Positions 14,740 to 32,001 of a DNA stretch of 32,261 bases are shown one piece after another. Source of the DNA: an uncultured Burkholderiales bacterium. Its GTDB lineage: Bacteria > Pseudomonadota > Gammaproteobacteria > Burkholderiales > Thiobacillaceae. A program made the position numbers and the translations under genes. Location of the stretch: positions 1 through 32,261 of the forward strand of contig CALEDT010000062.1 of NCBI GenBank assembly GCA_937949525.1, written 5' to 3'. Position 1 is the first letter of the stretch. Each line of letters begins with the position of its first letter. The notes under the pieces were generated by a model, which was given only the letters and a program-made list of their open reading frames with translations, was not told the DNA's origin and did no database searches.

Positions 14740-15140
14740 GCCATCCATCCGCTGATCTGGTGGCCAAGATGGAAGCGCTGTTGCGCAAGCACCCGCCCGA
14801 CGCGCTGATCGACCGGGGGCTGGACGACGATGATTTCCCGCTGCTGGAAGACGTCGTGGCGGCGCACGACGAACAGCATGGCGCGCCCGGAGGCGTAGAG
14901 CGCCGCCAGGCGGATCGGCGGCAGGCGGATCGGCGCACACAGCAGCGCCGGCTGGGTGAGCGCCGTCAGGTCGATGCGCGCCTGGCGGAACCGTCCATGA
15001 CCGCGCCGCCGGATCTGGAACGGTTGTTCGAAGCGCTGGAGCGTCGCCTGGCGGACCTGTTCATCCGGCAACAACTGCGCACCGAGGACGCCGTGCGCAA
15101 GATCGTCCGTGAGGAACTGGCGCGCGCCGCGGATTCTTGA
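14736..15140 (+). CDS. Small charged protein of unknown function between holC and valS
   Basis: The 134-residue product starts [20 protein letters not shown] at an ATG that overlaps the holC stop (ATGA), so translation is probably coupled. An acidic helical first part (to about 50) is followed by an arginine/glutamine-rich segment (about 55-80) with two QADRR units encoded by a 15-bp tandem repeat. A C-terminal helical part with many Arg/Glu pairs (about 90-130) may form a coiled coil. There is no signal peptide or membrane segment. I do not recognise the family. Confidence 0.75.
14907..14936 (+). repeat. Two-copy 15-bp tandem repeat inside the holC-valS small gene
   Basis: The unit starting CAGGCGGATCGG at 14907 is repeated at 14922 with 14 of 15 bases identical. 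It is in frame and encodes QADRR twice. Slippage here would change the protein length by five residues without shifting frame. Confidence 0.85.
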
Positions 15141-18018: not shown

Positions 18019-19317
18019 ATGCAGAGCGACGCGCCGGCGAGCGTACTCGCCGAATTGAACGATTGGTACGCCGCGCTGAACGAGCCGGCGCACTGGTATC
18101 AACTGGCCGTTCTGGTCGTGGCGCTGGCGGGTGCCTGGTACGCGCATCGCCGGCTGGATGCGCGCCTCGGCGGCAGCGCCGATCAGGCGGAGCCGGCCGG
18201 TTTGCGCCGTTTCACGTTGCGTTCCGTGCAACGCGTGTTGTTGCCCCTGTCGATGCTGTTCGCGGTGCTGATCGGCCGCGCCATTCTCGATGCGCTGCAC
18301 GTCAACACGGCGGTGCTCGGCCTCGCGGTGCCGCTACTGATGTCGCTGGCGGCGATCCGCTTGGTGATCTATGCGTTGCGCAAGGGCTTCACCATGACGC
18401 CGGCCTTGAAGGCCTGGGAAAACGTGGTCAGCACCTCGATCTGGGCGGTACTGGCGCTGCATCTGCTGGGCTGGCTGCCGGAGGTCACGGTGGCGCTCGA
18501 CGGTCTGGCCTTCAACCTGGGCACTGCGCGCATTTCCCTGCTGGCGGTGCTCAAACTGATCCTCGCCGTCGCGTCGTTGATGACCCTGGCATTCTGGCTG
18601 GCCAACGTCATCGACCGGCACATGAAGACTTCGGCGCACATCAACCCGGCCATGCAGGTCGCGCTCGCCAAGTTCAGCCGTTTCTTCCTGGTCACGCTGG
18701 CGGTGTTGTTGTCGCTCAACGCCGTCGGCATCGACCTCACCGCCTTGGCGGTGTTCGGTGGCGCCCTGGGGGTGGGCCTGGGGCTCGGCCTGCAGCGCAT
18801 CGCCAGCAATTTCATCAGCGGTTTCATCCTGGTGCTGGACCGGTCCATCAAGCCGGGCGATGTCATCACCATCGGCCAGAGTTTCGGCTGGGTGCAGGAG
18901 TTGCGCGCGCGTTATGTCGTCGTGCGCAACCGCGATGGCGTGGAGACGCTGATCCCCAACGAGAATCTGATCACCTCGGAAGTCATCAACTGGAGTTACA
19001 CCGACCCCAACGTGCGCCTGCGCATTCCGGTGCAAATCAGCTACGACGACGATCCGGAACAGGCCATGGCGCTGATGCTGGAGGCGGCCAAGGCCAGCCC
19101 GCGCGTGCTGGCCGATCCGGCCCCGGTCGTCCGGCTGATGGAGTTCGGCGACAACGGCATCCTGCTGGAGCTGCGGGTGTGGATCGACGACCCGGAGGAA
19201 GGCGTCGGCAACGTGCGTTCGACCATCAATCTGGCGGTCTGGCGTGCGTTCAAGCAGGCCGGCATCACCATCCCCTACCCGCAGCGCGACATCCACATCA
19301 AGCCGGCGGGTGTTTGA
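18019..19317 (+). CDS. MscS-family mechanosensitive channel
   Basis: The 432-residue inner-membrane protein has about five predicted membrane segments (about 27-42, 75-90, 95-115, 130-150, 170-195), then a pore segment. The pore helix is glycine/alanine-rich (247-258, GGALGVGLGLGL) and is followed by QRIASNFISGFILVLDRS and KPGD, the MscS beta-domain signature. Such channels release solutes on hypo-osmotic shock. It lies 12 bases after valS behind a G-rich stretch. Its last 20 bases overlap the minus-strand chelatase gene. The exact subfamily is not assigned. Confidence 0.92.
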   Translation: MQSDAPASVLAELNDWYAALNEPAHWYQLAVLVVALAGAWYAHRRLDARLGGSADQAEPAGLRRFTLRSVQRVLLPLSMLFAVLIGRAILDALHVNTAVLGLAVPLLMSLAAIRLVIYALRKGFTMTPALKAWENVVSTSIWAVLALHLLGWLPEVTVALDGLAFNLGTARISLLAVLKLILAVASLMTLAFWLANVIDRHMKTSAHINPAMQVALAKFSRFFLVTLAVLLSLNAVGIDLTALAVFGGALGVGLGLGLQRIASNFISGFILVLDRSIKPGDVITIGQSFGWVQELRARYVVVRNRDGVETLIPNENLITSEVINWSYTDPNVRLRIPVQISYDDDPEQAMALMLEAAKASPRVLADPAPVVRLMEFGDNGILLELRVWIDDPEEGVGNVRSTINLAVWRAFKQAGITIPYPQRDIHIKPAGV

Positions 19318-19738
19318 TCGGCGCCGCGCCGGCCCGGCCGATCGCGCATGTTGTGAGCGCGTGTTCGGCTCCAGCCTCCATCGCCACATCGAGAATCGCG
19401 CGGGGCAATGCGGCCGACGCCCCGAGGTGCGCGGTCAGGCGCAGGTGGATGTGCGGATGGCGGTCGGCGAAGCGGGCAAGCTCGGCCGGGATGTCGTCGG
19501 CGACGTGGGTGCCCGCGGCGAGAAAGTAGGGCAGGACGACGATTTCCGTGGCGCCCGCCATGGCGCAGCGGCGCAGTCCCGCGGCGATGTCGGGCTCGGC
19601 CAGTTCCAGAAACGCGACTTCCACGTGATCGATGCCGGGGCTGCGCAGGCCGGCGACCAGCCCGCCCAGTCGCCGCACTTCGTCGTTGGAGGTCTGGCGG
19701 CGGCTGCCGTGGGCGATGATGAGCAGATGGCGTTGCAT
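19298..19738 (-). CDS. Short CbiX/SirB-type sirohydrochlorin chelatase
   Basis: The 146-residue product starts MQRHLLIIAHGSRRQTSNDE. His10 in AHGSR and His78 in AAGTHVADDIP match the two metal-binding histidines of the small, homodimeric CbiX-S/SirB chelatases. These insert cobalt (B12 route) or iron (siroheme route) into sirohydrochlorin; the metal cannot be told from sequence. It starts four bases after the upstream cfa stop, so it is the last gene of the seven-gene operon. Its end overlaps the convergent channel gene. Confidence 0.82.
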   Translation of the reverse strand: MQRHLLIIAHGSRRQTSNDEVRRLGGLVAGLRSPGIDHVEVAFLELAEPDIAAGLRRCAMAGATEIVVLPYFLAAGTHVADDIPAELARFADRHPHIHLRLTAHLGASAALPRAILDVAMEAGAEHALTTCAIGRAGAAPIKHPPA

Positions 19739-19742
19739 GGTC

Positions 19743-21083
19743 TCAGCGCCTTGCCAGAGGCAGGTGGCCGCGCCATGCGGGTTTGGCCAGCAGCATCTGC
19801 ACGGTGCCCAGGTCGCGTTCGCGGAAGCCGCCCTCGCAGTAGCACAGGTAGAACTCCCACATGCGCAGGAAGCGTTGGTCGAAACCGAGCGCGAGGATGC
19901 GCTCGCGCGCGGCCAGGAAGTTGGCGCGCCAACGCGCCAGGGTTTCGGCGTAATGCGGGCCGATGTCCACCAGATCGACCAGCTTCAGGTCGCTGGCGCG
20001 CCCGGCGGCGCCGACCAGCGCGCCGACACTGGGCAGGAAACCGCCGGGAAAGATGTGCTTCTGGATGAAATCCACGGCGTTCAGCGCGGCGGCGTAGCGT
20101 TGATCGGTGATGGTGATGGCCTGCAACAGCATGGCGCCGTTCGCCTTCAGCAGCCGGCCGCATTGGCTGAAATAACCGTCGAGCCGGTCCGCGCCGACCG
20201 CCTCCACCATCTCGATCGACACCAGTTTGTCGTACTGGCCGGCCAGATCGCGGTAGTCACCCAGCAGTACGGTCACGCGCTCGCTCAGTCCGGCCTGCGC
20301 CATGAGCTGGCGCGCCAAATCGAACTGGGCCGGCGACAGCGTGATGGTGGTCACCCGGCAACCATGGCGGCTCGCAGCGTGTAGCGCGAGGCCGCCCCAA
20401 CCGGTGCCGATCTCCAGCAGGTGGTCGTGCGCGCCCAAGTCCAGCGCCTGGCAGACGCGCTCCAGCTTGGCGGTGGATGCTGCGGCTAGCGTCATGTCCG
20501 GGTCGCGGAACCAGGCGCAGGAGTACATCAGCGTTTCGTCCAGCCACAGCCGGTAGAAGTCGTTGCCGAGGTCGTAATGCGCGGCGACATTGTGCCGGCT
20601 GCCGGCGCGGGTGTTGCGTCGCAGCCAATGGCGCAAGACACGCAGGGGCGCAGTGAGGCGGGCGACGCCGCGTTCCATACCGTCCAGCACCCGCCGGTTG
20701 CGCAACAGCAGTCGCACCAGGTCGACCAGCGCGCGGTCGTCGTCGCAACGCCAATATCCGGCCATGTAGGCTTCCCCGGCGCCGACGCTGCCTGCCAGGG
20801 CCATGGACGACCACAGCCGCGGGTCCAGTACCTGCACGCGCACGCATAGCTCGGCTTCGTTCGCCGGTTGACCGAACGCCCGCGTATGCCCCGGCTCGAT
20901 CAGTTCCAGGCGGCCCCGGGACAGGCGCGCAAGACGCGCATGCACCGCGTCGCGCGCGCGGCGCAGAGGCCACGGGCAGGCGCTCCCACTGGTCACTGGC
21001 GTGAGCGCATGCCGGGTGTTGCCGCCCATGCCTGGCAGCAGCGGCGCACACGGGTCATGGATGTCGAGGGGGTCGGGCTGCAT
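19743..21083 (-). CDS. cfa: Cyclopropane-fatty-acyl-phospholipid synthase
   Basis: The 446-residue product is a SAM-dependent methyltransferase that adds a methylene group to unsaturated acyl chains in membrane phospholipids. The SAM site LEIGTGWGG is at about 223-231. The family motifs YDLGNDFY (170-177), MYSCAWF (186-192) and VSIEMVEAVG are visible, with the C-terminal LRMWEFYLCYCEGGFR. I start at 21083, just five bases after the DUF1365 stop; an earlier ATG at 21224 would overlap that gene. The first ~35 residues lack homology, so a later start (21026) is possible. Confidence 0.93.
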   Translation of the reverse strand: MQPDPLDIHDPCAPLLPGMGGNTRHALTPVTSGSACPWPLRRARDAVHARLARLSRGRLELIEPGHTRAFGQPANEAELCVRVQVLDPRLWSSMALAGSVGAGEAYMAGYWRCDDDRALVDLVRLLLRNRRVLDGMERGVARLTAPLRVLRHWLRRNTRAGSRHNVAAHYDLGNDFYRLWLDETLMYSCAWFRDPDMTLAAASTAKLERVCQALDLGAHDHLLEIGTGWGGLALHAASRHGCRVTTITLSPAQFDLARQLMAQAGLSERVTVLLGDYRDLAGQYDKLVSIEMVEAVGADRLDGYFSQCGRLLKANGAMLLQAITITDQRYAAALNAVDFIQKHIFPGGFLPSVGALVGAAGRASDLKLVDLVDIGPHYAETLARWRANFLAARERILALGFDQRFLRMWEFYLCYCEGGFRERDLGTVQMLLAKPAWRGHLPLARR

Positions 21084-21088
21084 GGCAA

Positions 21089-21883
21089 TCACGCCCGGTC
21101 GGGCGCCTCCGGTGTGCTGGCTTTGCCAGGGTGATCGTGGATGGGAATACCCTTGTGCCACAGGCGCAGGGCCTGCCAGTGAATGGCGAACATGACCTGG
21201 GCGGTCATCAACGGATAGCGCCACAACGCGCGCGCAAGCGACGTGCCGTCGATCTCGCGGCGGTACAGCACCAGTGTGGCGTCCAGCAGCGTGTGGCCGT
21301 CATGCAGGTCGTCCATGTGCACCGTCAGACGCTCGCCGGGCAACGTCAGGCGCCAGCGGTATTCCAGATTCATCGGCAGGAACGGTGACACGTGCAGGGT
21401 CTTGGCGAAGCGGAAGCTCGGTCGCTGCGCGCGGCCCAGGTTGTCTTTCATCGCCAGCGCGTACAGGTGGCGCTCGCGCCATGGCGTGTTGGTCACCTCG
21501 CCCAGCACGGCTTGCAAGGTCTTGCCGTCGCCGGCGTAGCAATAGAACAGACTGATCGGGTTGAAGCCGTAGCCGAAGTAGCGCGGATGGGTGAGCAGGC
21601 GGATCGGGCCGGCTGGCCGGCATCCGGTTTGGCGTTGCACCTCGTCGCGTACCGCGACGTCGAGTGGCGTACCCGGATCACCCAGATGATCGGCGCGCCG
21701 CCACCAGGCCAGATTGGCGCGCTGGGTGGACCACAGCCAGTGCCCGTCGAACACCTGGTCAACCTCGTCCAGATCCAGCCACAGCATCACCAGCCGATAG
21801 GTAAAGGCGTGCGTGCTTGGCGACAGTCCCGCCACCGCGTAACGGCGGTGGCGCAACCAGCCCTCGTACAGCGCGCTATGCAT
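21089..21883 (-). CDS. DUF1365 family protein
   Basis: The 264-residue product starts MHSALYEGWLRHRRYAVAGL, with the family features LYEG-x3-HRR, YRLVMLWLDLDE and YFGYGFNPISLFYCY (about residues 100-116). No catalytic role is established for the family. It consistently travels with COG2907 flavoproteins and CFA synthases in light- or singlet-oxygen-induced operons, so a role in lipid modification is inferred. It lies between those two genes here with very short gaps (36 and 5 bases). Confidence 0.9.
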   Translation of the reverse strand: MHSALYEGWLRHRRYAVAGLSPSTHAFTYRLVMLWLDLDEVDQVFDGHWLWSTQRANLAWWRRADHLGDPGTPLDVAVRDEVQRQTGCRPAGPIRLLTHPRYFGYGFNPISLFYCYAGDGKTLQAVLGEVTNTPWRERHLYALAMKDNLGRAQRPSFRFAKTLHVSPFLPMNLEYRWRLTLPGERLTVHMDDLHDGHTLLDATLVLYRREIDGTSLARALWRYPLMTAQVMFAIHWQALRLWHKGIPIHDHPGKASTPEAPDRA

Positions 21884-21919
21884 GCCTGCTCCGTGGGTCG
21901 CGAAGATCCGGCCTGCGGT

Positions 21920-23206
21920 TCATGCCGCGCGCCGCTGCCGCAGGCGCAGTCGGTCCTCGTCGAAGTGTCTCAGCGCGTCCATCGCGCTGACCACGCCATC
22001 CTCATGAAAGCCGTTGCGCCACCAGGCACCGCAGTAATACGTGTTGCCGGTGCCGTCGATGTCACGGTGACGCGCCTGCGCCGCGACCGCCGCTGGCGTG
22101 AACAGCGGATGGTGGTAACTCATGCGCGCGAGGATGCGCGCCGGGTCGATGGCCCCGCCGTGCTCCGGCGGATTGACGGTGACACACAGCGGCTCGGGGG
22201 CCATCAGCCGCTGCAGACGGTTCATGTCGTAGGTCAGGCAGACACGGTCTTGCGGCTCGCGTGGCATCAGGTAGTTCCAAGCCGCGCGCGCCAGCCGCCG
22301 GCGCGGCAGCAGGTGCTGGTCGGTATGCAGCACGGCTTCATTGGTCTGATAGGGGATCGCACCGAGGACCGCGCGTTCCGTCGGCGTCGGATCGTCCAGC
22401 AAGGCCAGCGCCTGGTCACTGTGGCAGGCGACGAACACCGCGTCGAAGCGGTGCACGCCGTCGGCCAGGCGCACCCATACCTGACCGGGTGGGCGACGCA
22501 GGCCCAGTACCGGCGTGTCGACATGCACGCGCGACCGGAACGGCGCGATCAGGCGTTCGACATAGCTGCGCGAGCCGCCGCGCACCACCCGCCAGACAGG
22601 ACGGTCGCGCAGGGCGAGTAGGCCATGGTTGTGGAAAAAGCGCACGAACAGGCGGGCCGGGAAATCCAGCATGCGCGCCGGATCGGTGGACCAGATGGCG
22701 GCACCCATCGGCAGTATGTAGTAGTCACGGAACGGCCGGCCATAACCGCCGCGCGCAAGGTAATCCCCCAGCGCCAGTTCGTCGCCCTGCTGGCTGAGCA
22801 GCGTCGGGGCCTCGTGGTTGAAGCGCAGGATGTCGCGCACCATGTTCCAGAACGCCGGCCTGAGCAGATTGCGGCGTTGCGCGAACAATGCGTTGAGCGA
22901 GGTGCCGTTGTATTCCAGGCCGCCGCCGGGGAAATCCGGGCAGGTCACGCTGAAGCTCATGTCGCTGGCCTGGCTCTCCACGCCCAGGTCATCCAGCAGT
23001 CGGGTGAAATGGGGGTAGGTGCGGTTGTTGAAAACGATGAAACCGGAGTCGACCGCATAGCGGCGACCGCCGAGGGACACGTCGTGCGTATGCACGTGGC
23101 CGCCGACATGCCCACCCACCTCGAACACGCGGATGTCGTGACGCGGATGCAGATGATGCGCGATGGTGAGGCCGGCGATGCCGCTGCCGATGATGGCGAT
23201 CTTCAT
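21920..23206 (-). CDS. FAD-dependent oxidoreductase (COG2907 type)
   Basis: The 428-residue product starts MKIAIIGSGIAGLTIAHHLH, a Rossmann FAD site with Gly7, Gly9 and Gly12. The GGHVHTHDV and VDSGFIVFNNRTYPHF segments identify the amine-oxidase-like COG2907 subgroup. From memory, a member in Rhodobacter sphaeroides (UfaD) takes part in furan fatty acid synthesis as a desaturase, which supports a fatty-acid substrate here, but that is inference. The start overlaps the DUF1295 stop by four bases. No signal peptide is seen. Confidence 0.9.
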   Translation of the reverse strand: MKIAIIGSGIAGLTIAHHLHPRHDIRVFEVGGHVGGHVHTHDVSLGGRRYAVDSGFIVFNNRTYPHFTRLLDDLGVESQASDMSFSVTCPDFPGGGLEYNGTSLNALFAQRRNLLRPAFWNMVRDILRFNHEAPTLLSQQGDELALGDYLARGGYGRPFRDYYILPMGAAIWSTDPARMLDFPARLFVRFFHNHGLLALRDRPVWRVVRGGSRSYVERLIAPFRSRVHVDTPVLGLRRPPGQVWVRLADGVHRFDAVFVACHSDQALALLDDPTPTERAVLGAIPYQTNEAVLHTDQHLLPRRRLARAAWNYLMPREPQDRVCLTYDMNRLQRLMAPEPLCVTVNPPEHGGAIDPARILARMSYHHPLFTPAAVAAQARHRDIDGTGNTYYCGAWWRNGFHEDGVVSAMDALRHFDEDRLRLRQRRAA

Positions 23207-24000
23207 GCCCTCGACGCCCTCGCATTGGCGGTGTCGCGTCGAGGCGGCAGGGGCACGAAGGCGCTGGTGCGCGCCTGGTAGTCGCGGTAGCCGGGGCGAC
23301 GCTCGGCGATGTCCCGCTCCAGCAGTGCCACCCCGGAAATGCGCAGCAACAGCACGGTCATCAGCAGCGGCGAGATCACCGTCCACGCCGCGCCGGCGCT
23401 CAGCGCCATCAGCCACGCACCCCACCACACCAGACATTCGCCGAAATAGTTCGGGTGACGGCTCCACGCCCACAGGCCGCGGGTCATGACTGCGTCGCGA
23501 TTGCGCGGGTCGGCCGTGAAGCGGGCCAGTTGGCGGTCGGCGAGCGTTTCGAAGGCGATGCCGAACAACCACAGACCGGCACCCAGCAGGTCGAGCCAGC
23601 CGAGCGGACGCTCGCTCGCCAGGGCGGCCATCAGCGGCAACGCCACCACCCAGGCGAGCACGGCTTGTAGGCCGAATACCCGATACAGGCTCTCGCGCGC
23701 GAAGTGTGCGTGACGCGCACGCATGGCGCGATAGCGGCGGTCCTCGCCCCGGCCCCGATTGCGCCGGCCGATGTGCAACGACAGACGCAGCGCCCACAGG
23801 CTGGCGAGCGTCAATACCAAGGCGACGCGCGTGCCTTCGGTCGCGGCGGCGAACTGGTATAGCCACGCCGCGCCGGCGATCATCAGCGCCCACAGCGTAT
23901 CGACGATGCTGACATCGCGCAGCGCCAGGCTGAAGCCCCAGGCCGCCAGCGCCGCCAGGAGCAGCACCGGCAGGGCGAGCGCGGCGGCCTGCCATTCCAT
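23203..24000 (-). CDS. DUF1295 membrane protein (steroid 5-alpha-reductase-like)
   Basis: The 265-residue product has about six or seven hydrophobic segments. The C-terminal motif TRGLWAWSRHPNYFGECLVWW (about 175-195) is typical of DUF1295 and the wider isoprenylcysteine methyltransferase/5-alpha-reductase superfamily, which bind lipid substrates and NADPH or SAM. Its reaction is unknown. The ATG directly abuts the stop of the preceding methyltransferase gene, and its own stop overlaps the flavoprotein start, indicating tight coupling. Confidence 0.88.
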   Translation of the reverse strand: MEWQAAALALPVLLLAALAAWGFSLALRDVSIVDTLWALMIAGAAWLYQFAAATEGTRVALVLTLASLWALRLSLHIGRRNRGRGEDRRYRAMRARHAHFARESLYRVFGLQAVLAWVVALPLMAALASERPLGWLDLLGAGLWLFGIAFETLADRQLARFTADPRNRDAVMTRGLWAWSRHPNYFGECLVWWGAWLMALSAGAAWTVISPLLMTVLLLRISGVALLERDIAERRPGYRDYQARTSAFVPLPPRRDTANARASRA

Positions 24001-25047
24001 TCAGACCTCCCGCGCAAACAGATAGTGGCCGACGTGCCAGCGCTCGCCGCCGTCGCAGCCGAAGGTTTCGGCGCAGGCCATGAAGAACAGGCGCCAGCGC
24101 TGCCACCACACCAAGGCGTGTGCTTCGCCGTAGGTGGTGGCGAGGATGGCCAGGATGGTCTCGCGCCGAGCGTCCATGCGTTGCAACCAGGCATCGGCCG
24201 TGCGCTGGTAATGGCGCCCGCTCCAGTGCCATTGGCGCAACGGCAGCAACGGTTGCGCGATGCGCAACGGAAGGTCGGCGCTGGGCATCATGCCGCCGGT
24301 GAAGAAATGCCGGCTCATCCAGTCGTCGTCGTCCCGGTCCTCGAACAGATACGGGGTGTCACGGTGGCAGAACACGTGCATGAAGAAGCGGCCGCCGGGC
24401 ACCAGCCAGGTACGGATGCGGCGCATCAGCGTCGCCCAGTTGCGCATGTGCTCGAACATCTCCACCGAGACCACGCGGTCGAACGTCGCGCCAGGAGCGA
24501 ACGCGTTCATGTCGGCGGTGATTACCGTCAGGTTGGCGATGCCCAGGCCCGCCGCCCGCGCTTCGATGAAACGGCGCTGCGCGTGCGAGTTGGACACGGC
24601 GGTGATGCGCGCGGCCGGATAGTGCCGCGCCAGCCACAAGGACAGGCTGCCCCAGCCGCAGCCCAGTTCCAGGATACGCTGGCCGTCCGTGAGCCCGGCG
24701 CGCTCACAGGTCGCGCGCAACGCCGCCACCTCGGCGTCGGCGAGGTCGGCAACACCCTCGGGCCACCAGCAGCAACTGTATTTTCGCTGTGGGCCCAGCA
24801 CCTCGCCGAAGAACTCCGCAGGCAGCTCGTAATGCTGGCTGTTGGCGAGTTCGGGCCGCGGCGCCACCGGCGCGTCGGCCAGCGCTTCGATGAACGTGGC
24901 GAGACGCTCCACGGCCGTCTCGCCGTCGGACGCGTCCAACGACTGCTGGCGCCGGCGGCACAACCGCCGTATGCCCGCGCGCACCAGGGCATCGGGCACC
25001 ATTCCTCGTTCCACCCAGTGCAGGGCGACGCGGGAGGCGGTGGTCAT
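24001..25047 (-). CDS. CFA-synthase-like SAM-dependent methyltransferase (second copy)
   Basis: The 348-residue product carries the SAM motif LELGCGWGS (about 126-134) and the CFA-like patterns QHYELPAEFF (71-80) and YSCCWWPEGV (90-99). It is about 100 residues shorter than the operon's other CFA synthase and clearly divergent from it, so a different acyl substrate or product is likely. The ATG at 25047 follows the peroxidase stop by 10 bases; the frame is open further upstream but overlaps that gene. Confidence 0.9.
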   Translation of the reverse strand: MTTASRVALHWVERGMVPDALVRAGIRRLCRRRQQSLDASDGETAVERLATFIEALADAPVAPRPELANSQHYELPAEFFGEVLGPQRKYSCCWWPEGVADLADAEVAALRATCERAGLTDGQRILELGCGWGSLSLWLARHYPAARITAVSNSHAQRRFIEARAAGLGIANLTVITADMNAFAPGATFDRVVSVEMFEHMRNWATLMRRIRTWLVPGGRFFMHVFCHRDTPYLFEDRDDDDWMSRHFFTGGMMPSADLPLRIAQPLLPLRQWHWSGRHYQRTADAWLQRMDARRETILAILATTYGEAHALVWWQRWRLFFMACAETFGCDGGERWHVGHYLFAREV

Positions 25048-25057
25048 CGAACGGGGC

Positions 25058-25672
25058 TCAGGTGGACCGCCGTACGGTCTTGCGTGCATCCAGCATGCGC
25101 TGCATCTCGCGCAGCAGACGCGGGTCGTCGGGCGGCACGGCGGAGCCGAAGCTCAGCACGCGTTGGCCATCCCGGTCGATCAGGTACTTATGGAAATTCC
25201 ACGCCGGTTGTTCACCGGTACGGCGATGCAGTTGCTCGAACAGCGGGTTGCGTCGCGGGCCGATGACCCGCGATTTCTCGTACATCGGAAACTCGACGCC
25301 GTAGGTGAGACGGCAGAACCGAGCGACGGCCTGGTTGGAGCCCGGCTCCTGGGCGCCGAAATCGTTGGACGGAAAACCCAGCACCACCAGGCCGCGTCCC
25401 TTGAAGTCGCGGTATAGCCGCTCCAGGCCGGCGTACTGATCGGTGTAGGCGCAATAACTGGCGGTGTTGACCACCAGCACCACCTTGTCGCGATAGCGAC
25501 AGAGATCCTCCGGTTGCCCGGTCTGCAAACGGTTGAACTCATGGCGCAGCAGTTCCGGACATGACGCCGCGTGCGTCGAGTGGCTGAACCACAGGCCGGC
25601 GAGCAGCAGCATGCCGGCACTCAACCAGGCGATGTAGGTCCGGGCGGGATGGTGCGCGATTCCGGTCGTCAT
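25058..25672 (-). CDS. Exported glutathione peroxidase-family protein
   Basis: The 204-residue product has an N-terminal signal sequence (hydrophobic core about residues 13-29, possible cleavage after THA at 33-35). The thiol-peroxidase tetrad is visible: Cys74 in NTASYCAYT, Gln108 in SNDFGAQEPG, and Trp158-Asn159 in WNF. The catalytic residue is Cys, not Sec. Such enzymes reduce peroxides, often lipid hydroperoxides, usually with thioredoxin. AGGA lies nine bases before the ATG. It is the first gene of the lipid operon, placed behind the minus-strand promoter. Confidence 0.9.
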   Translation of the reverse strand: MTTGIAHHPARTYIAWLSAGMLLLAGLWFSHSTHAASCPELLRHEFNRLQTGQPEDLCRYRDKVVLVVNTASYCAYTDQYAGLERLYRDFKGRGLVVLGFPSNDFGAQEPGSNQAVARFCRLTYGVEFPMYEKSRVIGPRRNPLFEQLHRRTGEQPAWNFHKYLIDRDGQRVLSFGSAVPPDDPRLLREMQRMLDARKTVRRST

Positions 25673-25679
25673 GATCGTA

Positions 25680-25691
25680 TGTCCTGGACAA
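25680..25691. promoter_or_regulatory. Operator-like box 1 (TGTCCTGGACAA)
   Basis: The inner TGTCC-T-GGACA is a perfect inverted repeat of 5-bp arms. The box overlaps the proposed -35 of the plus-strand regulator promoter and differs by one base from box 2. A cobalamin-MerR binding site is inferred from position and repetition only. Confidence 0.5.
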
Positions 25692-25712
25692 AGGTGACGA
25701 TGCCGCTACTAT
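25685..25712 (+). promoter_or_regulatory. Possible promoter of the MerR/B12 regulator gene
   Basis: TGGACA (25685-25690) and TACTAT (25707-25712) are 16 bases apart. The -10 matches consensus at four positions. It overlaps the -10 of the divergent operon, so the two would compete. The predicted leader is about 52 nt. Confidence 0.35.
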
Positions 25713-25736
25713 AGGAACGCGGTTCCGAAGTGTCAA
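25708..25736 (-). promoter_or_regulatory. Strong sigma70 promoter of the lipid-modification operon
   Basis: On the minus strand a perfect TTGACA (25731-25736) and TATAGT (25708-25713) are separated by exactly 17 bases. The spacer contains an inverted repeat GGAAC-GCG-GTTCC (25714-25726). The predicted start near 25701 gives a leader of about 30 nt before the peroxidase gene. A near-consensus promoter under a repressor fits CarH/LitR-type dark repression. Confidence 0.75.
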
Positions 25737-25741
25737 TCAGG

Positions 25742-25753
25742 TGTCTTGGACAA
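25742..25753. promoter_or_regulatory. Operator-like box 2 (TGTCTTGGACAA)
   Basis: It matches box 1 at 11 of 12 bases and lies five bases upstream of the minus-strand -35. The two boxes start 62 bases apart, about six helical turns, on either side of both promoters. Regulator binding is inferred. Confidence 0.5.
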
Positions 25754-25770
25754 CGATTTGATTTTTCCAC

Positions 25771-26682
25771 ATGCCCCATCATTCGAACGCCTTGCCGATC
25801 AGTGCCGTGGAACGTGAAACGGGCATCTCCAAGGACGTGCTGCGCAAATGGGAAACCCGCTACGGCTTTCCCCGCCCCGAACGTGATGTGCACGGCGAGC
25901 GCGTCTATACACCCGAGCAGGTGCAGCGACTGCGTCGGATCAAGCGCCTGCTGGATGTGGGCATGCGTCCTGCCAGGGTGGTGCCGGAGACCTGCGCGGA
26001 CCTGTGCCCACCGGAGCACGTCCGGTCGTCCCGTGCGTCAGCGCCAGGCATTTCGGCTCCCGCCGCGGCTCTCCTGGCGCGCTTGCGCGCGCAAGATCTG
26101 CCCGGCTTGCGGCTGATGCTGCAGCGCCTGTTGTTGTTCCAGGGATTGCGGGTTTTTGTCATGGACACGGTTATTCCGCTGATGCACGCAGTAGGGGCCG
26201 CGTGGAGCGCCGGCGAACTGGAGATCCACGAAGAGCACCTGTTCACCGAAGTGCTGCAAGGGGTGCTGCGCGGCGTGCAGGAGTCGCTCGCCAACGTCGA
26301 CGGTCGGCCGCGCGTGTTGCTGACCACGGCGCCGGAAGAGTCCCACGGTCTGGGGCTGCAGATGGTCGCCGCGCTGTTGGCCCTGGACGGCGCGCATTGC
26401 GTGTCTTTGGGCACGCGCACGCCTTTGCAGGACATCGCCAACGCTGCGTTCGCCCATCGCAGCGACGTGGTGGCCCTGTCGTTCAGCATCGCCTACCCGG
26501 CGAGGCGTATCCAGCCGACCCTGGCCGAACTGCGTGCGCGTCTGCCTGCATCCGTGGCGATCTGGGCGGGTGGCGCCGGCACGGCGCGCAGGCGCGTCAT
26601 GGTGGCGGGGTGTGAGCTGCTGCCGAACCTGCACGCCCTGCCTGTGGCGCTGGCCGCCTGGCATGCGCGCCATCCGGCCTGA
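25771..26682 (+). CDS. MerR-family regulator with cobalamin-binding sensor domain (CarH/LitR type)
   Basis: The 303-residue product has an N-terminal MerR winged helix (ISAVERETGISKDVLRKWET, about 10-70). A four-helix domain follows with Trp145 and Glu155-His156, which match the W-x9-EH pattern around the upper face of AdoCbl in CarH. The Rossmann-like B12 domain has E-x-H-x-x-G with His192 as lower ligand, and a WAGGAG loop. Such proteins repress in the dark with AdoCbl and release DNA in light. The residue after Trp145 is Ser, not the His I recall in Thermus CarH. It is divergent from the lipid operon. No Shine-Dalgarno is evident. Confidence 0.88.
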   Translation: MPHHSNALPISAVERETGISKDVLRKWETRYGFPRPERDVHGERVYTPEQVQRLRRIKRLLDVGMRPARVVPETCADLCPPEHVRSSRASAPGISAPAAALLARLRAQDLPGLRLMLQRLLLFQGLRVFVMDTVIPLMHAVGAAWSAGELEIHEEHLFTEVLQGVLRGVQESLANVDGRPRVLLTTAPEESHGLGLQMVAALLALDGAHCVSLGTRTPLQDIANAAFAHRSDVVALSFSIAYPARRIQPTLAELRARLPASVAIWAGGAGTARRRVMVAGCELLPNLHALPVALAAWHARHPA

Positions 26683-26774: not shown

Positions 26775-26891
26775 CCCCGGTCGCGGCCGGCGGCGCTTTG
26801 CGGGTAACATTCGCGCCTATTTGGTCGGACCCCGCCTCGGCGTCTTCCGGCCATGCGAGATCCTGAAGTCTTCACCCATCGGAGGCGATAC

Positions 26892-28175
26892 ATGACGTCT
26901 GTAGTGGCGACCAACCAGACCATACTGGTCGTGGGCGGCGGCATTTCCGGCATGACGGCGGCGCTGGAAGCGGCCGAAACCGGAAAGCAAGTCGTGCTGG
27001 TGGAGAAGAACCCGTACCTGGGCGGCCGCACCGTCCAGCTCTACCGGTACTTCCCCAAGATGTGCCATCCCACCTGCGGCCTGGAGATCAATCTGCGCCG
27101 CCTCAAGGCCAATCCCCGCATCCAGGTGTTGACCCTGGCCGAAGTCACCGGCATCCGCGGCGGACGGGGCAACTACAGCGTCTCGGTCAAGTTGAAGCCG
27201 CGCTACGTCAACGAGAATTGCACGGCCTGCGGCGAATGTGGCAAGGCGGTGGAGACCGAGATCGCCGACGCCTTCAACTACAACCTGGGCAAGATCAAGG
27301 CGGCCTATCTGCCGTCCAACATGGCCTACCCGCAGCGCTACGTGATCGATGCCAGCATCATCGGCACGCCCGACGCCGAACGGGCCAAGGCGGCGTGCAA
27401 GTACGGTGCGGTGGACTTGGACGACAAGGAAGAGGTGATCACGCTGAACGCGGGCGCCATCGTCTGGGCCACCGGCTGGAAGCCGTATGACGCCGAGAAG
27501 ATCGTCTACTACGGCTATGGCCGCTTCCCCAACGTCGTCACCAACGTCGAGTTCGAGCGCCTGGCCGATCCGCACGGCCCCACCGGCGGCAGGATCCTGC
27601 GCCCGTCGGACGGCAAGGAGGCGAAGAACGTCGCCTTCATCCAGTGCGCCGGCTCGCGCGACGAGAACCACCTGCGCCACTGCTCGCGCTTCTGCTGCAT
27701 GGGGTCGCTGAAGCAGACCCATTACGTGCAGGAAGCCTATGGCGACGCTGGCAAGTCGACCATCTACTACATCGACATCCGCGCCATCGACCGCTTCGAG
27801 GACTTCTACCAGAAGGTCAAGGCCAACCCCAACGTGCGCTTCGTGAAGTCGAAGGTGGCGCGCATCACCGAGGACAAGGACGGCAATCCGGTGTGCAACG
27901 GCGTCGATGTCGAGGGTTACAAGCGCTATGCCACGGCGCACGATCTGGTCGTGCTGGCCCTGGGCATGGAGCCCTCGGTCAAGGGCGTGGACATTCCCGC
28001 CGAGGTGATGAGCGATTCCTCCGGCTTCGTCATGGCCGATCCGGCCAACGCCGGCATCTTCGGCGCCGGCTGCGCCACCAACGCGCTGGATGTGAACCGC
28101 GCGGTGCAGAGCGCCACCGCCGCGGCGCTGCGTGCCATCCAGGTCGTCAACAAAGTCGCCCGCGCGGAGGCTTGA
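26892..28175 (+). CDS. qmoA: QmoA, HdrA-like flavoprotein subunit
   Basis: The 427-residue product is a soluble FAD protein of the quinone-interacting membrane-bound oxidoreductase complex, which exchanges electrons with APS reductase. It has an FAD site GGGISG (15-20), the motif YFPKMCHPTCGLEIN (Cys58, Cys62), and CAGSRD plus CSRFCCMGSLKQ (Cys252, 264, 268, 269). The ferredoxin motif is incomplete: Cys110, 113 and 116 remain but residue 120 is Val, and only Cys169 is left in the second motif region. GGAGG at 26881-26885 sets the start; an upstream ATG (26853) lacks support. Confidence 0.93.
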   Translation: MTSVVATNQTILVVGGGISGMTAALEAAETGKQVVLVEKNPYLGGRTVQLYRYFPKMCHPTCGLEINLRRLKANPRIQVLTLAEVTGIRGGRGNYSVSVKLKPRYVNENCTACGECGKAVETEIADAFNYNLGKIKAAYLPSNMAYPQRYVIDASIIGTPDAERAKAACKYGAVDLDDKEEVITLNAGAIVWATGWKPYDAEKIVYYGYGRFPNVVTNVEFERLADPHGPTGGRILRPSDGKEAKNVAFIQCAGSRDENHLRHCSRFCCMGSLKQTHYVQEAYGDAGKSTIYYIDIRAIDRFEDFYQKVKANPNVRFVKSKVARITEDKDGNPVCNGVDVEGYKRYATAHDLVVLALGMEPSVKGVDIPAEVMSDSSGFVMADPANAGIFGAGCATNALDVNRAVQSATAAALRAIQVVNKVARAEA

Positions 28176-28179
28176 GAAA

Positions 28180-30441
28180 ATGGCTGAAACGAAAACTGCT
28201 GCTTACATCTGCAAGGGCTGCGAACTGGGTGTCCGCCTCGACACGGCCGCGCTGGCCAAGGTGGCCACCAAGTCCGGCAAGATGAACATCGTGCGCGAGC
28301 ACGACTTCCTGTGCTCCGCCGACGGCGTGGCCATGATCCGCAACGACATCGACAACGAGGGCGTCACCCACGCCGCCATCTGCGCCTGCTCGCGCCGCGC
28401 CAAGACCGAGGCGTTCAATTTCCCCACCATCGCGATGAGCCGCGGCAACCTGCGCGAGGGCGTGATCTGGATCCGCCCGGATACCGAAGAGGCACGCGAG
28501 ACCACGCAGGAAATGGCCGAAGACTACGTACGCATGGCCTGTGCCGAAGTCAAGGCCATGACCGTGCCGCCGGGCAACCAGAAGACCGGCACGGTCAAGA
28601 CCCTGCTGGTGGTCGGCGGCGGCATGTCCGGCATGACCGCGGCGCTGGAAGCGTCCAAGGCCGGTTACAAGGTGGTGCTGGTGGAAAAAACCGGCGCGCT
28701 GGGCGGCTGGGCCGCCCGGCTGCACAAGCGCGTGCCGACGCGCGAACCGTTCAAGTCGCCCGAGGACAATGGCGTGGCGGATCTCATCGCCCGCATCGAG
28801 GCGGACGCCAACATCAAGGTCTACCTCAACGCCACCATCGCCAAGACCGATGGCGCACCCGGCCGCTTCAAGGTCGAGATCGCGGTCGAATCCGGCGGCA
28901 TCGCGCAGGAAGACATCGGCGCCATCATCCAGGCCACTGGTTTCAACCTGTACGATGCCGGCAAACTGCCGGAATTCGCCTATGGCAAAACCCCCAACGT
29001 GGTCGATCAGGCCGGCCTTGAAGCCTTGGCCAGGGCGGCCGCCGCCGAAGGCAAGCCGATCTGCCGGCCGTCCGACGGCCAGCCGGTCAAGTCCGTGGTG
29101 TTCGTGCAGTGCGCCGGTCAGCGCGATGCCAGCGGCACCCACCTACAGTACTGCTCCGGCTTCTGCTGCAATACCAGCATCAAGCAGGCCATGTACTTCA
29201 AGGACAGCAACCCGGATATCGACACCGTCGTGCTGTTCACCGACCTGCGCACGCCCGGTAACGGCGAGGACTTCTACCGTGCCGCGCAGAACCGCGGCGT
29301 GATCTTCTCCAAGGGCGTGGTCTCGCAAGTGGTGCCCAACGGCAATGCCTGCACGGTCAAGTTCAAGGATCTGATCCTCAACGAGGACACCCAGGCCGAG
29401 GCCGATCTGGTGGTGCTGGCCACCGGCGTGGTGCCCAATTCCGGCGTCAACATCGAAGCCGTCGCTGCACCGGCGGAAGGCGACGGCGAGGGGGGCGAAG
29501 GCGATGCGCCCAAGGAAGTCGTGGCCACCATCAAGCCCGAATCCATCCTCAACCTGACCTATCGCCAGGGGCCGGACATGCCCCAGTTCAAGCACGGCTT
29601 CACCGATTCGCATTTCATCTGCTTCCCCTACGAAACCCGCCGTACCGGGATCTACTCGGCCGGCCCGGTACGCCGGCCGATGGACATCGCGCAGGCGCAG
29701 GAAGACGCCACCGGTGCTGCGATGAAGGCCATCCAGGCGATGGAGAATGCCGGTCTCGGCAAGGCCGCGCATCCGCGTGCCGGCGATCTGTCCTTCCCCA
29801 CGGTGCGTCTGGAAGGCTGCACGCAGTGCAAGCGCTGCACGGTGGAATGCCCGTTCGGCGCCATCGACGAGGACGAGAAGCGCTTCCCGCTGTTCAACGA
29901 ATCGCGTTGCCGCCGCTGCGGCACCTGCATGGGTGCCTGCCCGGTGCGCGTGATCTCGTTCGAGAATTACTCGGTCAACACCGTCGGCGCGCAGATCAAG
30001 GCCGTGGACGTACCGGACGAGTTTGCGGAAAAACCGCGCATCCTGATCCTGGCCTGCGAGAACGACGCCTATCCGGCGCTGGACATGGCCGGCATGAACC
30101 GTCACGAGTACGACCCCTACGTGCGCGTAATTCCGGTGCGTTGTCTGGGCTCGGTCAATACCATCTGGATCACCGACGCGCTCAACGGCGGCTACGACGG
30201 CGTCATGCTGATGGGCTGCAAGCACGGCGAGGAGTACCAGTGCCACTTCGTCAAGGGGTCCGAACTGGGCCGGTATCGCCTGTCCAAGGTGGGTGACACG
30301 CTCAAGGGCATGAACTTGGAGACCGAACGCGTGAAGGATCTGGAAGTCGCGATCACCGACATCGCCACGTTGCCGCAGAAGATCAACGAGTACGCCGAGT
30401 TGATCAAGTCCTTCCCGCCGTCCCCGTTCAAGGGCTTCTAA
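28180..30441 (+). CDS. qmoB: QmoB, HdrA-like flavin/iron-sulfur subunit with MvhD domain
   Basis: The 753-residue product has an N-terminal cysteine cluster domain (Cys11, 14, 45, 68, 70), an HdrA-type FAD domain (GGGMSG at 146-151) and CAGQRD with a CCNTSIKQ segment. Two complete 4Fe-4S motifs follow (Cys547/550/553/557 and 577/580/583/587). A C-terminal MvhD-like domain holds Cys626, 655, 680 and 688. It likely relays electrons between QmoA, its partner enzyme and HdrCB. CGGAGG inside the end of qmoA precedes the ATG at 28180. An acidic glycine-rich loop lies near residue 435-445. Confidence 0.94.
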   Translation: MAETKTAAYICKGCELGVRLDTAALAKVATKSGKMNIVREHDFLCSADGVAMIRNDIDNEGVTHAAICACSRRAKTEAFNFPTIAMSRGNLREGVIWIRPDTEEARETTQEMAEDYVRMACAEVKAMTVPPGNQKTGTVKTLLVVGGGMSGMTAALEASKAGYKVVLVEKTGALGGWAARLHKRVPTREPFKSPEDNGVADLIARIEADANIKVYLNATIAKTDGAPGRFKVEIAVESGGIAQEDIGAIIQATGFNLYDAGKLPEFAYGKTPNVVDQAGLEALARAAAAEGKPICRPSDGQPVKSVVFVQCAGQRDASGTHLQYCSGFCCNTSIKQAMYFKDSNPDIDTVVLFTDLRTPGNGEDFYRAAQNRGVIFSKGVVSQVVPNGNACTVKFKDLILNEDTQAEADLVVLATGVVPNSGVNIEAVAAPAEGDGEGGEGDAPKEVVATIKPESILNLTYRQGPDMPQFKHGFTDSHFICFPYETRRTGIYSAGPVRRPMDIAQAQEDATGAAMKAIQAMENAGLGKAAHPRAGDLSFPTVRLEGCTQCKRCTVECPFGAIDEDEKRFPLFNESRCRRCGTCMGACPVRVISFENYSVNTVGAQIKAVDVPDEFAEKPRILILACENDAYPALDMAGMNRHEYDPYVRVIPVRCLGSVNTIWITDALNGGYDGVMLMGCKHGEEYQCHFVKGSELGRYRLSKVGDTLKGMNLETERVKDLEVAITDIATLPQKINEYAELIKSFPPSPFKGF

Positions 30442-30451
30442 GGAGATTGCG

Positions 30452-31093
30452 ATGAGCGATTTGAATCAGCAGATGGCCAACCGCTACAAGAACAATTTCC
30501 TCAAGGAGATCGAGGAACAGGCGGAAATGGGCGAGTGGGTCAAGATGTGCATGCAGTGCGGCCTGTGCTCCGGTTCCTGCCCGACCAATTTCCAGGCGGG
30601 CTGGGACCACCCGCCGCAGGAGATTTTCATGATGATCCGTGCCGGCAAGCGCGACGAGGTGCTGTCGTCCGGCTCCATGTGGATGTGCACCTCCTGCTAC
30701 AACTGCTACGTGCGCTGCCCGCGCAAGGTGCCGGTCACCCACGTCATGCACGGCATCGCCGAGTACGCCTACCGCATCGGCCGCGCGCCCAAGAACCAGC
30801 CCACCCAGCACCTTTCCAAGACCTTCTGGGACAACGCCACCAAGCACGGCCGCGTCAACGAGGTCAAGCTCACGCAGTCGCTGTACTTCAAGGACGGCAT
30901 CGGTGCCGGCATCAAGAAGGGCCTGGAGATGAAGGACGTCGCCCTCGGCCTGGTCAAGGCCGGTCGGCTCAACCCCTTGGAAGCGCTGGGCATGGGCCAC
31001 AAGTGCAAGGATGTCGATGGCATCCACAAGATGCTGGCCAAGGCGCGCGAACTCGAAGCGCAGCGCAAGGGCCGCGACAACAAGGGCGCCTGA
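30452..31093 (+). CDS. hdrC: HdrC-like iron-sulfur subunit
   Basis: The 213-residue product has two complete C-x2-C-x2-C-x3-C motifs (Cys33/36/39/43 and Cys79/82/85/89) that bind two 4Fe-4S clusters, as in heterodisulfide reductase subunit C. There is no membrane segment, so it is not the HdrC/HdrE fusion that makes up QmoC. A basic helical C-terminal half follows. AAGGAGA precedes the ATG by a short spacer, and the gene follows qmoB by 10 bases. It probably passes electrons from QmoB to HdrB. Confidence 0.94.
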   Translation: MSDLNQQMANRYKNNFLKEIEEQAEMGEWVKMCMQCGLCSGSCPTNFQAGWDHPPQEIFMMIRAGKRDEVLSSGSMWMCTSCYNCYVRCPRKVPVTHVMHGIAEYAYRIGRAPKNQPTQHLSKTFWDNATKHGRVNEVKLTQSLYFKDGIGAGIKKGLEMKDVALGLVKAGRLNPLEALGMGHKCKDVDGIHKMLAKARELEAQRKGRDNKGA

Positions 31094-31104
31094 GGAGAAC
31101 ACGC

Positions 31105-32001
31105 ATGGCACGCAAGGAATACGCTTTCTATCCCGGCTGTTCGTCCCAGAAGGGCGCATCGGCCTCCAATTACCTGGTTTCGGTCGAGTCCATGTGCAAG
31201 ACGCTGGACATCAAGATGACCGAGATTCCCGACTGGAACTGCTGCGGCGCCTCGGTCAGCTACGCCGAGGCCGGCGAACTGCCGCGCCACGCCATGAACG
31301 CGCGCAACTTCGCACTGGCGGAAACCAACCTGCCCGGACAGGACATCGTCGCCACCTGTGCCGCCTGCTGGCTGGGCGCGCGTGAATCCAAGGAACGTTT
31401 GGAACACAACGACCGGTTGATGGCCGACACCCAGACTGCGCTGAAGGAAGCCGGTTTGCAGATCAAGGTGATCCCGGAAGTGCGTCACATGGTCGAGGTG
31501 CTGATCGAAGACCTGGGCTACGACGAGCTGAAGAAGCCGGTGAAGAAGCCGCTCAACGGCATGAAGTTCGCCGGTTACGTCGGCTGCCAGACCAACCGGC
31601 CGTTCGGCATCAACGGTGAATCGTTCGAGAATCCGCTGTACCTCGACAAACTGATCGAGACCGTGGGCGGCGAAGCGGTGCCCTACGACCAGAAGGTCAC
31701 CTGCTGCGGCGGCGCGCTGGCCTTCTCCGAGCCGGAGAAGGCGCAGGCGCAGATCAAGGACATCATCGAGGCCGCCTACGACGGTGGCGCCGAGATGATC
31801 GTCACCCCCTGCCCGCTGTGTCAGGCCAACGTCGAGGTCTATCAGGGTCAGATCAACAAGCGCTACGGCACCAAGTTCGACATCCCGGTGCTGTACTACT
31901 CGCAGTTGATGACCCTGGCCTATGGCGGCACCGCCAAGGAAGCCGGGCTGAATGGTAACGTGGTGCGGGCGCGCAAACTGGAAGAGTTCGCGGCCAAGTA
32001 A
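31105..32001 (+). CDS. hdrB: HdrB-like subunit with two CCG domains
   Basis: The 298-residue product carries two cysteine-rich CCG domains: Cys12, Cys46-Cys47, Cys85-x2-Cys88 and Cys161, Cys200-Cys201, Cys236-x2-Cys239. In methanogen HdrB such domains bind non-cubane clusters that cleave heterodisulfides. In sulfur and sulfate metabolism the substrate is unsettled (a disulfide or a quinone link). Both copies are complete, so catalytic clusters are likely. GAGGAGA (31092-31098) overlaps the hdrC stop. It is the last gene of the operon. Confidence 0.94.
   Translation: MARKEYAFYPGCSSQKGASASNYLVSVESMCKTLDIKMTEIPDWNCCGASVSYAEAGELPRHAMNARNFALAETNLPGQDIVATCAACWLGARESKERLEHNDRLMADTQTALKEAGLQIKVIPEVRHMVEVLIEDLGYDELKKPVKKPLNGMKFAGYVGCQTNRPFGINGESFENPLYLDKLIETVGGEAVPYDQKVTCCGGALAFSEPEKAQAQIKDIIEAAYDGGAEMIVTPCPLCQANVEVYQGQINKRYGTKFDIPVLYYSQLMTLAYGGTAKEAGLNGNVVRARKLEEFAAK

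Follow-up and report, generated by a model that had tools for sequence, protein, structure and literature searches.

A putative light-released furan fatty acid operon opposite a LitR/CarH-like regulator gene in a Thiobacillaceae bacterium

Organization of the divergon

The window analyzed in the present work, a stretch of 32,261 nucleotides (contig CALEDT010000062.1, assembly GCA_937949525.1) from an uncultured Burkholderiales bacterium of the family Thiobacillaceae, contains a divergon in which a tightly packed operon of seven genes on the minus strand (25672-19298) lies opposite the gene for a MerR/B12-binding regulator on the plus strand (25771-26682). A preliminary description made from the sequence alone had reported a CarH/LitR-type MerR regulator divergent from a seven-gene operon, and this arrangement is confirmed, at the same place and on the same strands, by Pfam cut-offs applied to the window proteins, all eight divergon genes scoring above cut-off. 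The two cyclopropane fatty acid (CFA)-type methyltransferases, the DUF1295 and DUF1365 proteins, the exported peroxidase and the CbiX-type chelatase that it listed each have such a match; its flavoprotein, putatively COG2907, is recovered through Amino_oxidase/NAD_binding_8. The features are as follows.

25771..26682, plus strand: class I LitR/CarH-like MerR regulator, 303 amino acids (Pfam MerR_1, B12-binding_2 and B12-binding)
25058..25672, minus strand: gpx, exported peroxidase of the glutathione peroxidase family, 204 amino acids (Pfam GSHPx and solved relatives; Sec-type N-terminus/signal peptide judged by eye)
24001..25047, minus strand: methyltransferase B, CMAS family, 348 amino acids, FufM candidate (Pfam CMAS and solved relatives)
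23203..24000, minus strand: DUF1295 membrane protein, 265 amino acids (Pfam)
21920..23206, minus strand: UfaD-like flavoprotein desaturase candidate, 428 amino acids (Pfam Amino_oxidase/NAD_binding_8 and pathway papers)
21089..21883, minus strand: UfaO-like DUF1365 protein, 264 amino acids (Pfam, pathway papers, and an AlphaFold2 model with a predicted local distance difference test score, pLDDT, of 91.9)
19743..21092, minus strand: methyltransferase A, UfaM-like, CMAS family, up to 449 amino acids, start codon uncertain (Pfam CMAS and gene order)
19298..19738, minus strand: CbiX/SirB-type small chelatase, 146 amino acids (Pfam CbiX)
25680..25690, no strand: operator O1, TGTCCTGGACA, where the 5' untranslated region of gpx would be expected (palindrome, genome pattern search, footprint in relatives)
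25708..25736, minus strand: operon promoter TTGACA-17-TATAGT, facing gpx (11 of 12 consensus matches)
25742..25752, no strand: operator O2, TGTCTTGGACA, 62 bp away from O1 and 5 bp ahead of the -35 box (palindrome, genome pattern search, footprint)
26157..26167, no strand: intragenic operator O3, TGTCATGGACA, in the regulator open reading frame at the codons for Phe129-Val-Met-Asp-Thr (palindrome, synonymous-codon tests)

By the gene coordinates, the intergenic gaps from gpx to cbiX are 10, 0, -4, 36, -4 and 4 nt, and such spacings (0-36 nt, or overlaps of 4 nt) are those that one transcript would have. The regulator and gpx are separated by 98 bp with a G+C content of 48%, as against 68% in the operon. 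No Rfam element, including the cobalamin riboswitch, reaches its gathering score between positions 15000 and 32261.

Operators and the operon promoter

The palindromes O1 and O2 flank the sigma70-type promoter that faces the operon. The pattern TGTCYNRGACA occurs twice in the 2.68-Mb genome, both times in the regulator-gpx intergenic region, as compared to six occurrences of the backward control; the looser pattern TGTCNNNGACA occurs 31 times, against 18 for its control, and the narrower pattern TGTCNTGGACA exactly three times, at O1, O2 and O3.

Conservation was evaluated in related loci, which are the best 80 of at least 574 relatives obtained from an alignment of the regulator, by scanning the 330 bp that precede the regulator match for the motif TGTC[CTA][AT][GAT]GACA; since this motif had been modelled on sites observed beforehand, the relatives that supplied it are not independent of it. 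At least one palindrome is present upstream of the regulator in 72 of the 80 loci, and the density is 112 palindromes in 26.4 kb of upstream sequence versus 8 in the 1.22 Mb that make up the rest of these loci. Pairs spaced by 61-64 bp are found in 27 loci (among 26 upstream regions examined in relatives, 12 had a pair 62-63 bp apart), and in 26 of the 80 a palindrome lies inside the regulator gene. Between the two members of a pair, a promoter-like site facing the operon with at least 9 of 12 consensus matches is present in 26 of 28 cases (the 27 pairs and that of the window), a count made with no shuffled control. That the operon is probably under the control of the regulator, as the preliminary description had implied, is well supported by palindromes that flank the operon promoter and are conserved in relatives. 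A regulator-facing promoter which would share O1 scores 9/12 in the window and is not claimed, since no more than 14 of the 28 pairs have it at that spacing.

The possibility that O3 is merely an accident of the coding sequence is disfavoured by two tests based on synonymous codons. Of the 31 genes that carry the rest of the palindrome, 29 use TTT for the Phe by which it is completed, as do 10 of the 38 genes that do not carry the rest (9 of 10 and 4 of 20, respectively, among representatives at 65% identity clustering), TTT being the less used Phe codon, with 160 of 515 other Phe codons. When synonymous codons were shuffled in 90 distinct genes, the 30 palindromes observed compared with an expectation of 4.9 +/- 1.8 (maximum 10 in 100 shuffles), and with all 98 genes 36 were observed against 5.4 expected; in both tests the kinship of the genes is only partly controlled. 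O3 is probably an intragenic operator with evolutionary support.

The regulator protein

The regulator consists of a helix-turn-helix, a four-helix B12-binding_2 domain and a Rossmann B12-binding domain, which is the architecture of class I LitR/CarH proteins, and it matches CarH of Thermus thermophilus (TtCarH; 5c8d) with an E value of 6e-31. The Wx9EH motif is intact (W145-x9-E155-H156), being invariant in 17 aligned sequences; intact too is the D/ExHxxG motif (E190-S-H192-G-L-G195), in which H192 aligns with the lower-ligand His of TtCarH. The published signature for binding of adenosylcobalamin (AdoCbl), GxxW, EH, GxxH and GxxxP, is present except that Glu replaces the Gly of GxxH, and the regulator has equivalents of the AdoCbl-binding residues W131/E141/H142/H177 (PMC11796333). 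At the Ala139-equivalent position, which is His153 in the window, His is found in only 16 of 84 parsed sequences and Phe in 52, so that His153 was rejected as a compensating ligand, there being no clade-wide replacement.

The same genome encodes a second copy of the regulator (L039, C6:24514-25386), which is CarH-like, about 48% identical and, judged by eye, beside a spermidine-synthase-like gene; no palindrome was found in the 260 bp read upstream of it. Locus L057 has the same type of neighbour, and L062 resembles L039 upstream, yet carries TGTCCTGGACA 20 bp before the match.

The candidate furan fatty acid genes

In the published pathway to furan fatty acids (FuFA), UfaM, UfaD (RSP1091, which has a domain binding nicotinamide adenine dinucleotide (NAD)/flavin adenine dinucleotide (FAD)) and UfaO (RSP1090, DUF1365) convert vaccenoyl chains to 9M5-FuFA, FufM leads on to 9D5-FuFA, and singlet oxygen kills cells that are unable to make the furan lipid (PMC7380195). 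The genes ufaD, ufaO and ufaM are neighbours in Rhodopseudomonas palustris, as judged from locus tags (PMC7380195), and ufaM, ufaD and ufaO are consecutive in Halomonas, where UfaM makes 11-methyl-octadecenoate (PMC12089945). The window operon likewise encodes a DUF1365 protein, a desaturase of the NAD/FAD type and a CFA-type S-adenosylmethionine-dependent methylase together, in the order flavoprotein, DUF1365, methyltransferase A, as in R. palustris and Halomonas, and the three genes adjoin the regulator in 43 of the 53 related loci that have 9 kb or more of upstream sequence. Family membership and gene order thus fit the assignment of the flavoprotein as a putative UfaD, of the DUF1365 protein as UfaO and of methyltransferase A as UfaM.

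Methyltransferase A departs from canonical CFA synthases in its active site, the bicarbonate-site residues of which we take to be Cys/Glu/His/Tyr. Of 62 distinct sequences, 61 have Gln in place of the His, and the remaining one (L043) is a methyltransferase B admitted by a loose cut-off; the Cys position holds Ser or Ala in 57 of the 62, though the window protein keeps Cys; Glu is retained in all 62 and Tyr in 60, with two gaps. A separate canonical Cfa is encoded elsewhere in the genome (C29).

The nearest solved relative of methyltransferase B is a plant coclaurine N-methyltransferase (6gkv, E 2e-68); E. coli CFA synthase (6bqc) matches it with E 8e-34, and its identity to methyltransferase A is 28%. 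Arabidopsis LIME1 and AtFUFM1/AT4G33110 are presumably of the coclaurine and coclaurine N-methyltransferase type, respectively, although no paper joining AT4G33110 with coclaurine N-methyltransferase was found in the literature searched. FufM itself is 26% identical to UfaM of Rhodobacter sphaeroides (PMC7380195) and 37.87% identical to LIME1 (PMC10940516).

The AlphaFold2 model of the UfaO-like protein, which is of high confidence, is mostly beta, with C-terminal helices. Its best fold matches are weak (lipocalin, fatty-acid-binding, nitrobindin and phycobiliprotein-lyase barrels, none at E <= 0.001) and no solved relative was found by sequence, so that no fold is assigned to it.

Genomic context

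The single CbiX match in the genome is the operon gene; among solved structures, its product is closest to sirohydrochlorin ferrochelatases. No CobT was found in the genome, and the tetrapyrrole-methylase family (TP_methylase) is represented by two proteins only, one with the domain architecture of CysG and the other, by its size, presumably RsmI. The one cobalamin riboswitch precedes a gene for a TonB-dependent receptor, and there is one PduO-type adenosyltransferase. On these markers (among genes of cobalamin synthesis, the search covered CobT and the tetrapyrrole methylases), the host probably imports a corrinoid and then adenosylates it.

Beyond cbiX lie valS and a gene for an MscS-type channel, which is convergent with cbiX and overlaps its 3' end by 20 bp (19298-19317). 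Genes for Hdr/FAD and Fe-S proteins, which we take to be Qmo-like, directly follow the regulator gene (26853-32001) and would be in line with a host that is plausibly a sulfur oxidiser. A phototrophic host is not supported, the genome having no match to a type II reaction centre. Nor is a photolyase a member of the operon; the two photolyase matches in the genome lie at C27 and C6.

All seven operon genes occur together in 5 of the 53 related loci that extend 9 kb or more upstream. The neighbourhood search suggested in the preliminary description finds the same order in relatives, with additional genes interspersed (DUF2878, lipocalin, CIA30, FolE2 and others). Because the order recurs, the gene set is not a product of chance, and because it is complete in these five loci, the set in the window is a recurring, streamlined form, not one peculiar to this organism; the preliminary description had thought the full set unusual. 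Locus L043 has, in 10.8-14.3 kb, the regulator, gpx, methyltransferase B, a lipocalin-like open reading frame (by eye), CIA30, a small protein with no Pfam match, and cbiX, with no ufaDOM nearby; L044 and L048 resemble it, without methyltransferase B.

Proposed mechanism and alternative explanations

The genes, operators, promoter, their conservation, the AdoCbl-binding motifs and the signs of an import-and-adenosylate B12 economy can be read from the sequence, and they suggest the following model. In the dark, the AdoCbl-bound regulator would occupy the O1 and O2 operators, probably with O3 as well, and would thereby block the sigma70 promoter that O1 and O2 flank and, as is likely, its own gene too; light would break the Co-C bond, releasing the repressor and allowing the operon to be expressed. 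UfaM would then methylate vaccenoyl chains of phospholipids, UfaD would add a second double bond, UfaO would close the furan ring using molecular oxygen, and methyltransferase B, if it is FufM, may add a second methyl group. The furan lipids would absorb singlet oxygen and the exported peroxidase would remove lipid peroxides, while the chelatase would fill free-base tetrapyrroles, which would end their photosensitising effect, or would serve siroheme synthesis. That the operon and its regulator together form a photoprotection system in which light releases the production of furan fatty acids is, overall, considered the probable reading, although with a considerable reserve; the light response, the lipid product, the identity of FufM and the substrates of the peroxidase and chelatase are the parts of it that we infer. 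The most specific version, in which a class I LitR without an upper ligand of the His132 type senses light through AdoCbl, acts from three operators (probably by looping or as a roadblock), and governs a one-operon dimethyl-furan pathway joined to a peroxidase and to a chelatase that clears photosensitising free-base tetrapyrroles, is tentative and more doubtful than the general one.

Several observations weigh against the model. At the position of His132 of TtCarH, which is the upper ligand in the light state, the regulator has Ser146, and His is found there in none of 90 clade sequences; the H132A variant of TtCarH is reported to remain mostly tetrameric in light, although an earlier, contrary report of disassembly is cited in the same paper (PMC10442372). 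The regulator scores 132 bits against the cut-off of 400 for the NCBIfam CarH equivalog NF052513, and for this reason it is filed here as LitR/CarH-like instead of as CarH. Because His is absent from the upper-ligand position throughout the clade, the light response is put no higher than likely. Eight of the 80 related loci have no palindrome and 53 lack a pair at 61-64 bp. As RSP1089, in the ufaDO operon of R. sphaeroides, is dispensable for the furan lipid, and UfaM is encoded elsewhere in that organism (PMC7380195), position alone does not prove that methyltransferase A is UfaM. Finally, in one relative (L069/L043, on the same contig) the sequence in view includes methyltransferase B but no ufaDOM, which, with the 28% identity to methyltransferase A and the likeness to plant enzymes, is why methyltransferase B is regarded as a candidate FufM and not as a finding.

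The explanation that competes most directly with the model is that the regulator controls the operon but responds to corrinoid supply, to oxygen or redox state, or to a partner protein, and not directly to light. It draws upon the missing upper ligand (90 of 90 clade sequences) and on the precedent of the class II LitR PmlR2 of Pseudomonas mendocina, which is released by a LOV photoreceptor (PMC9758184), but the regulator retains the published AdoCbl-binding residues and the host seems equipped to turn imported corrinoid into AdoCbl; this alternative is judged unlikely, while deserving serious attention. It is a good deal less probable that the lipid genes yield cyclopropane or methyl-branched fatty acids instead of furan fatty acids, as could be proposed from the match of both methyltransferases to the CMAS family and from the canonical His that methyltransferase B retains in the window, because methyltransferase A is adjoined by UfaD- and UfaO-type genes, nearly always has Gln for His, and coexists in the genome with a canonical Cfa.

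Two further proposals are given very little weight. The chelatase might feed cobalamin synthesis and in this way recharge the photoreceptor, as its CbiX family membership and the presence of cbiX beside the regulator in 9 of 80 related loci would allow; this link to B12 synthesis is rejected on the markers searched, since there is no CobT, there are two TP_methylase proteins with no corrin-ring methylases found, the riboswitch precedes the TonB receptor gene, and an adenosyltransferase is present. Slighter still is the chance that the operon belongs, in this host too, to a singlet-oxygen regulon under an extracytoplasmic function (ECF) sigma factor and ChrR. In Rhizobium tropici, sigma/ChrR genes do have the same gene types as neighbours, but the operon promoter is a near-consensus sigma70 promoter and the genome has no match to Cupin_7, which we take to be the ChrR family, so that ChrR control is not supported.

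Significance and comparison with known systems

Furan fatty acids guard cells from singlet oxygen, and their bacterial spread and inducing cue have been little mapped. If the photoprotection model is correct, a non-photosynthetic betaproteobacterium keeps a one-operon furan fatty acid kit, with an exported peroxidase, under a B12-type light-sensing repressor, and one effector module would be wired across the proteobacteria to interchangeable sensors (ChrR, LOV with class II LitR, and AdoCbl LitR). A natural CarH relative that lacks the upper His would be a direct test of the need for that ligand in the photoswitch, and the divergon also offers an intragenic operator with evolutionary support. 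No paper in the literature searched combines "furan fatty acid" with "CarH".

The preliminary description had connected parts of the gene set with light- or singlet-oxygen-induced regulons of other proteobacteria, and comparisons with Rhodobacter, Pseudomonas and R. tropici agree with this; its interpretation as a whole is partly upheld, the lipid genes being refined here to a furan fatty acid pathway. R. sphaeroides shares the UfaD, UfaO and UfaM enzyme types, and its furan fatty acid is raised in chrR mutants and protects from singlet oxygen, but control there is through an anti-sigma factor and ufaM is remote, whereas the window has an AdoCbl-type repressor and a sigma70 promoter (PMC7380195). 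FufM was described from R. palustris (RPA0924), where by locus tag it lies apart from the ufa genes (PMC7380195). The class II systems of Pseudomonas putida and P. mendocina (PplR/PmlR) share with the window a repressor of the LitR family and a ufaM-type gene, and the placement of their sites, one over the -35 box and one between the start site and the ATG, is comparable; ufaM and phrB are light-induced there, and an FAD oxidoreductase gene is in the cluster (PMC9758184). Class II LitR keeps one of the two B12 domains, has a LOV partner and uses TGTACA-N12-TGTACA sites (PMC9758184). The window regulator, in contrast, belongs to class I: its B12 motifs are intact, its palindromes are TGTCNTGGACA and one of them is intragenic, and its operon also holds gpx, DUF1295, a second methyltransferase and cbiX.

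The CarH proteins of Thermus and Myxococcus share with the window regulator the MerR and AdoCbl-binding domains and the Wx9EH and ExHxxG motifs, but they control carotenogenesis, the operators of TtCarH and BmCarH are tandem 11-bp direct repeats (PMC9304148, PMC11796333), and His132 of TtCarH is absent from the window regulator; many CarH homologues have a His after the Trp, and CarH operator design is described as plastic (PMC9304148). For gpx and cbiX, a close parallel is provided by pgpD-hemH2 of Shewanella oneidensis, an RpoE2-ChrR system in which a periplasmic glutathione peroxidase and a chelatase are encoded in one RpoE2-dependent oxidative-stress operon, although the chelatase there is the ferrochelatase paralogue HemH2, under a different regulator, and that of the window is of the CbiX/SirB type (PMC4336711).

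A plasmid cluster of R. tropici CIAT 899 (L174) brings together CFA-type, DUF1365, NAD(P)/FAD oxidoreductase, DUF1295 and methyltransferase-B-like (51.6%) genes; it adjoins ECF sigma/ChrR genes, and neither gpx nor cbiX is annotated there. In Cupriavidus the same gene types lie near a TetR gene, and in Azoarcus KH32C they adjoin a MerR gene of the window regulator's type (50.5% identical). Vibrio cholerae mutated in both chrR and merR is insensitive to blue light, and the genes that blue light induces in this species include one of the CFA type (PMC5241685). On an Aeromonas plasmid (L170, 3518-5413), MerR and phrB genes are clustered with genes for an FAD oxidoreductase, a DUF1365 protein and a CFA-type enzyme, beside a DUF523/DUF1722 gene; a TudS-DUF1722 type is, according to an abstract, a tRNA thiouridine desulfidase (RudS). 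Because the same gene types or kinds of regulator are found in R. tropici, Cupriavidus, Azoarcus, Pseudomonas and V. cholerae, the window system counts as a variant on known systems: the parts of the operon are known, and their combination and the details of the repressor are new.

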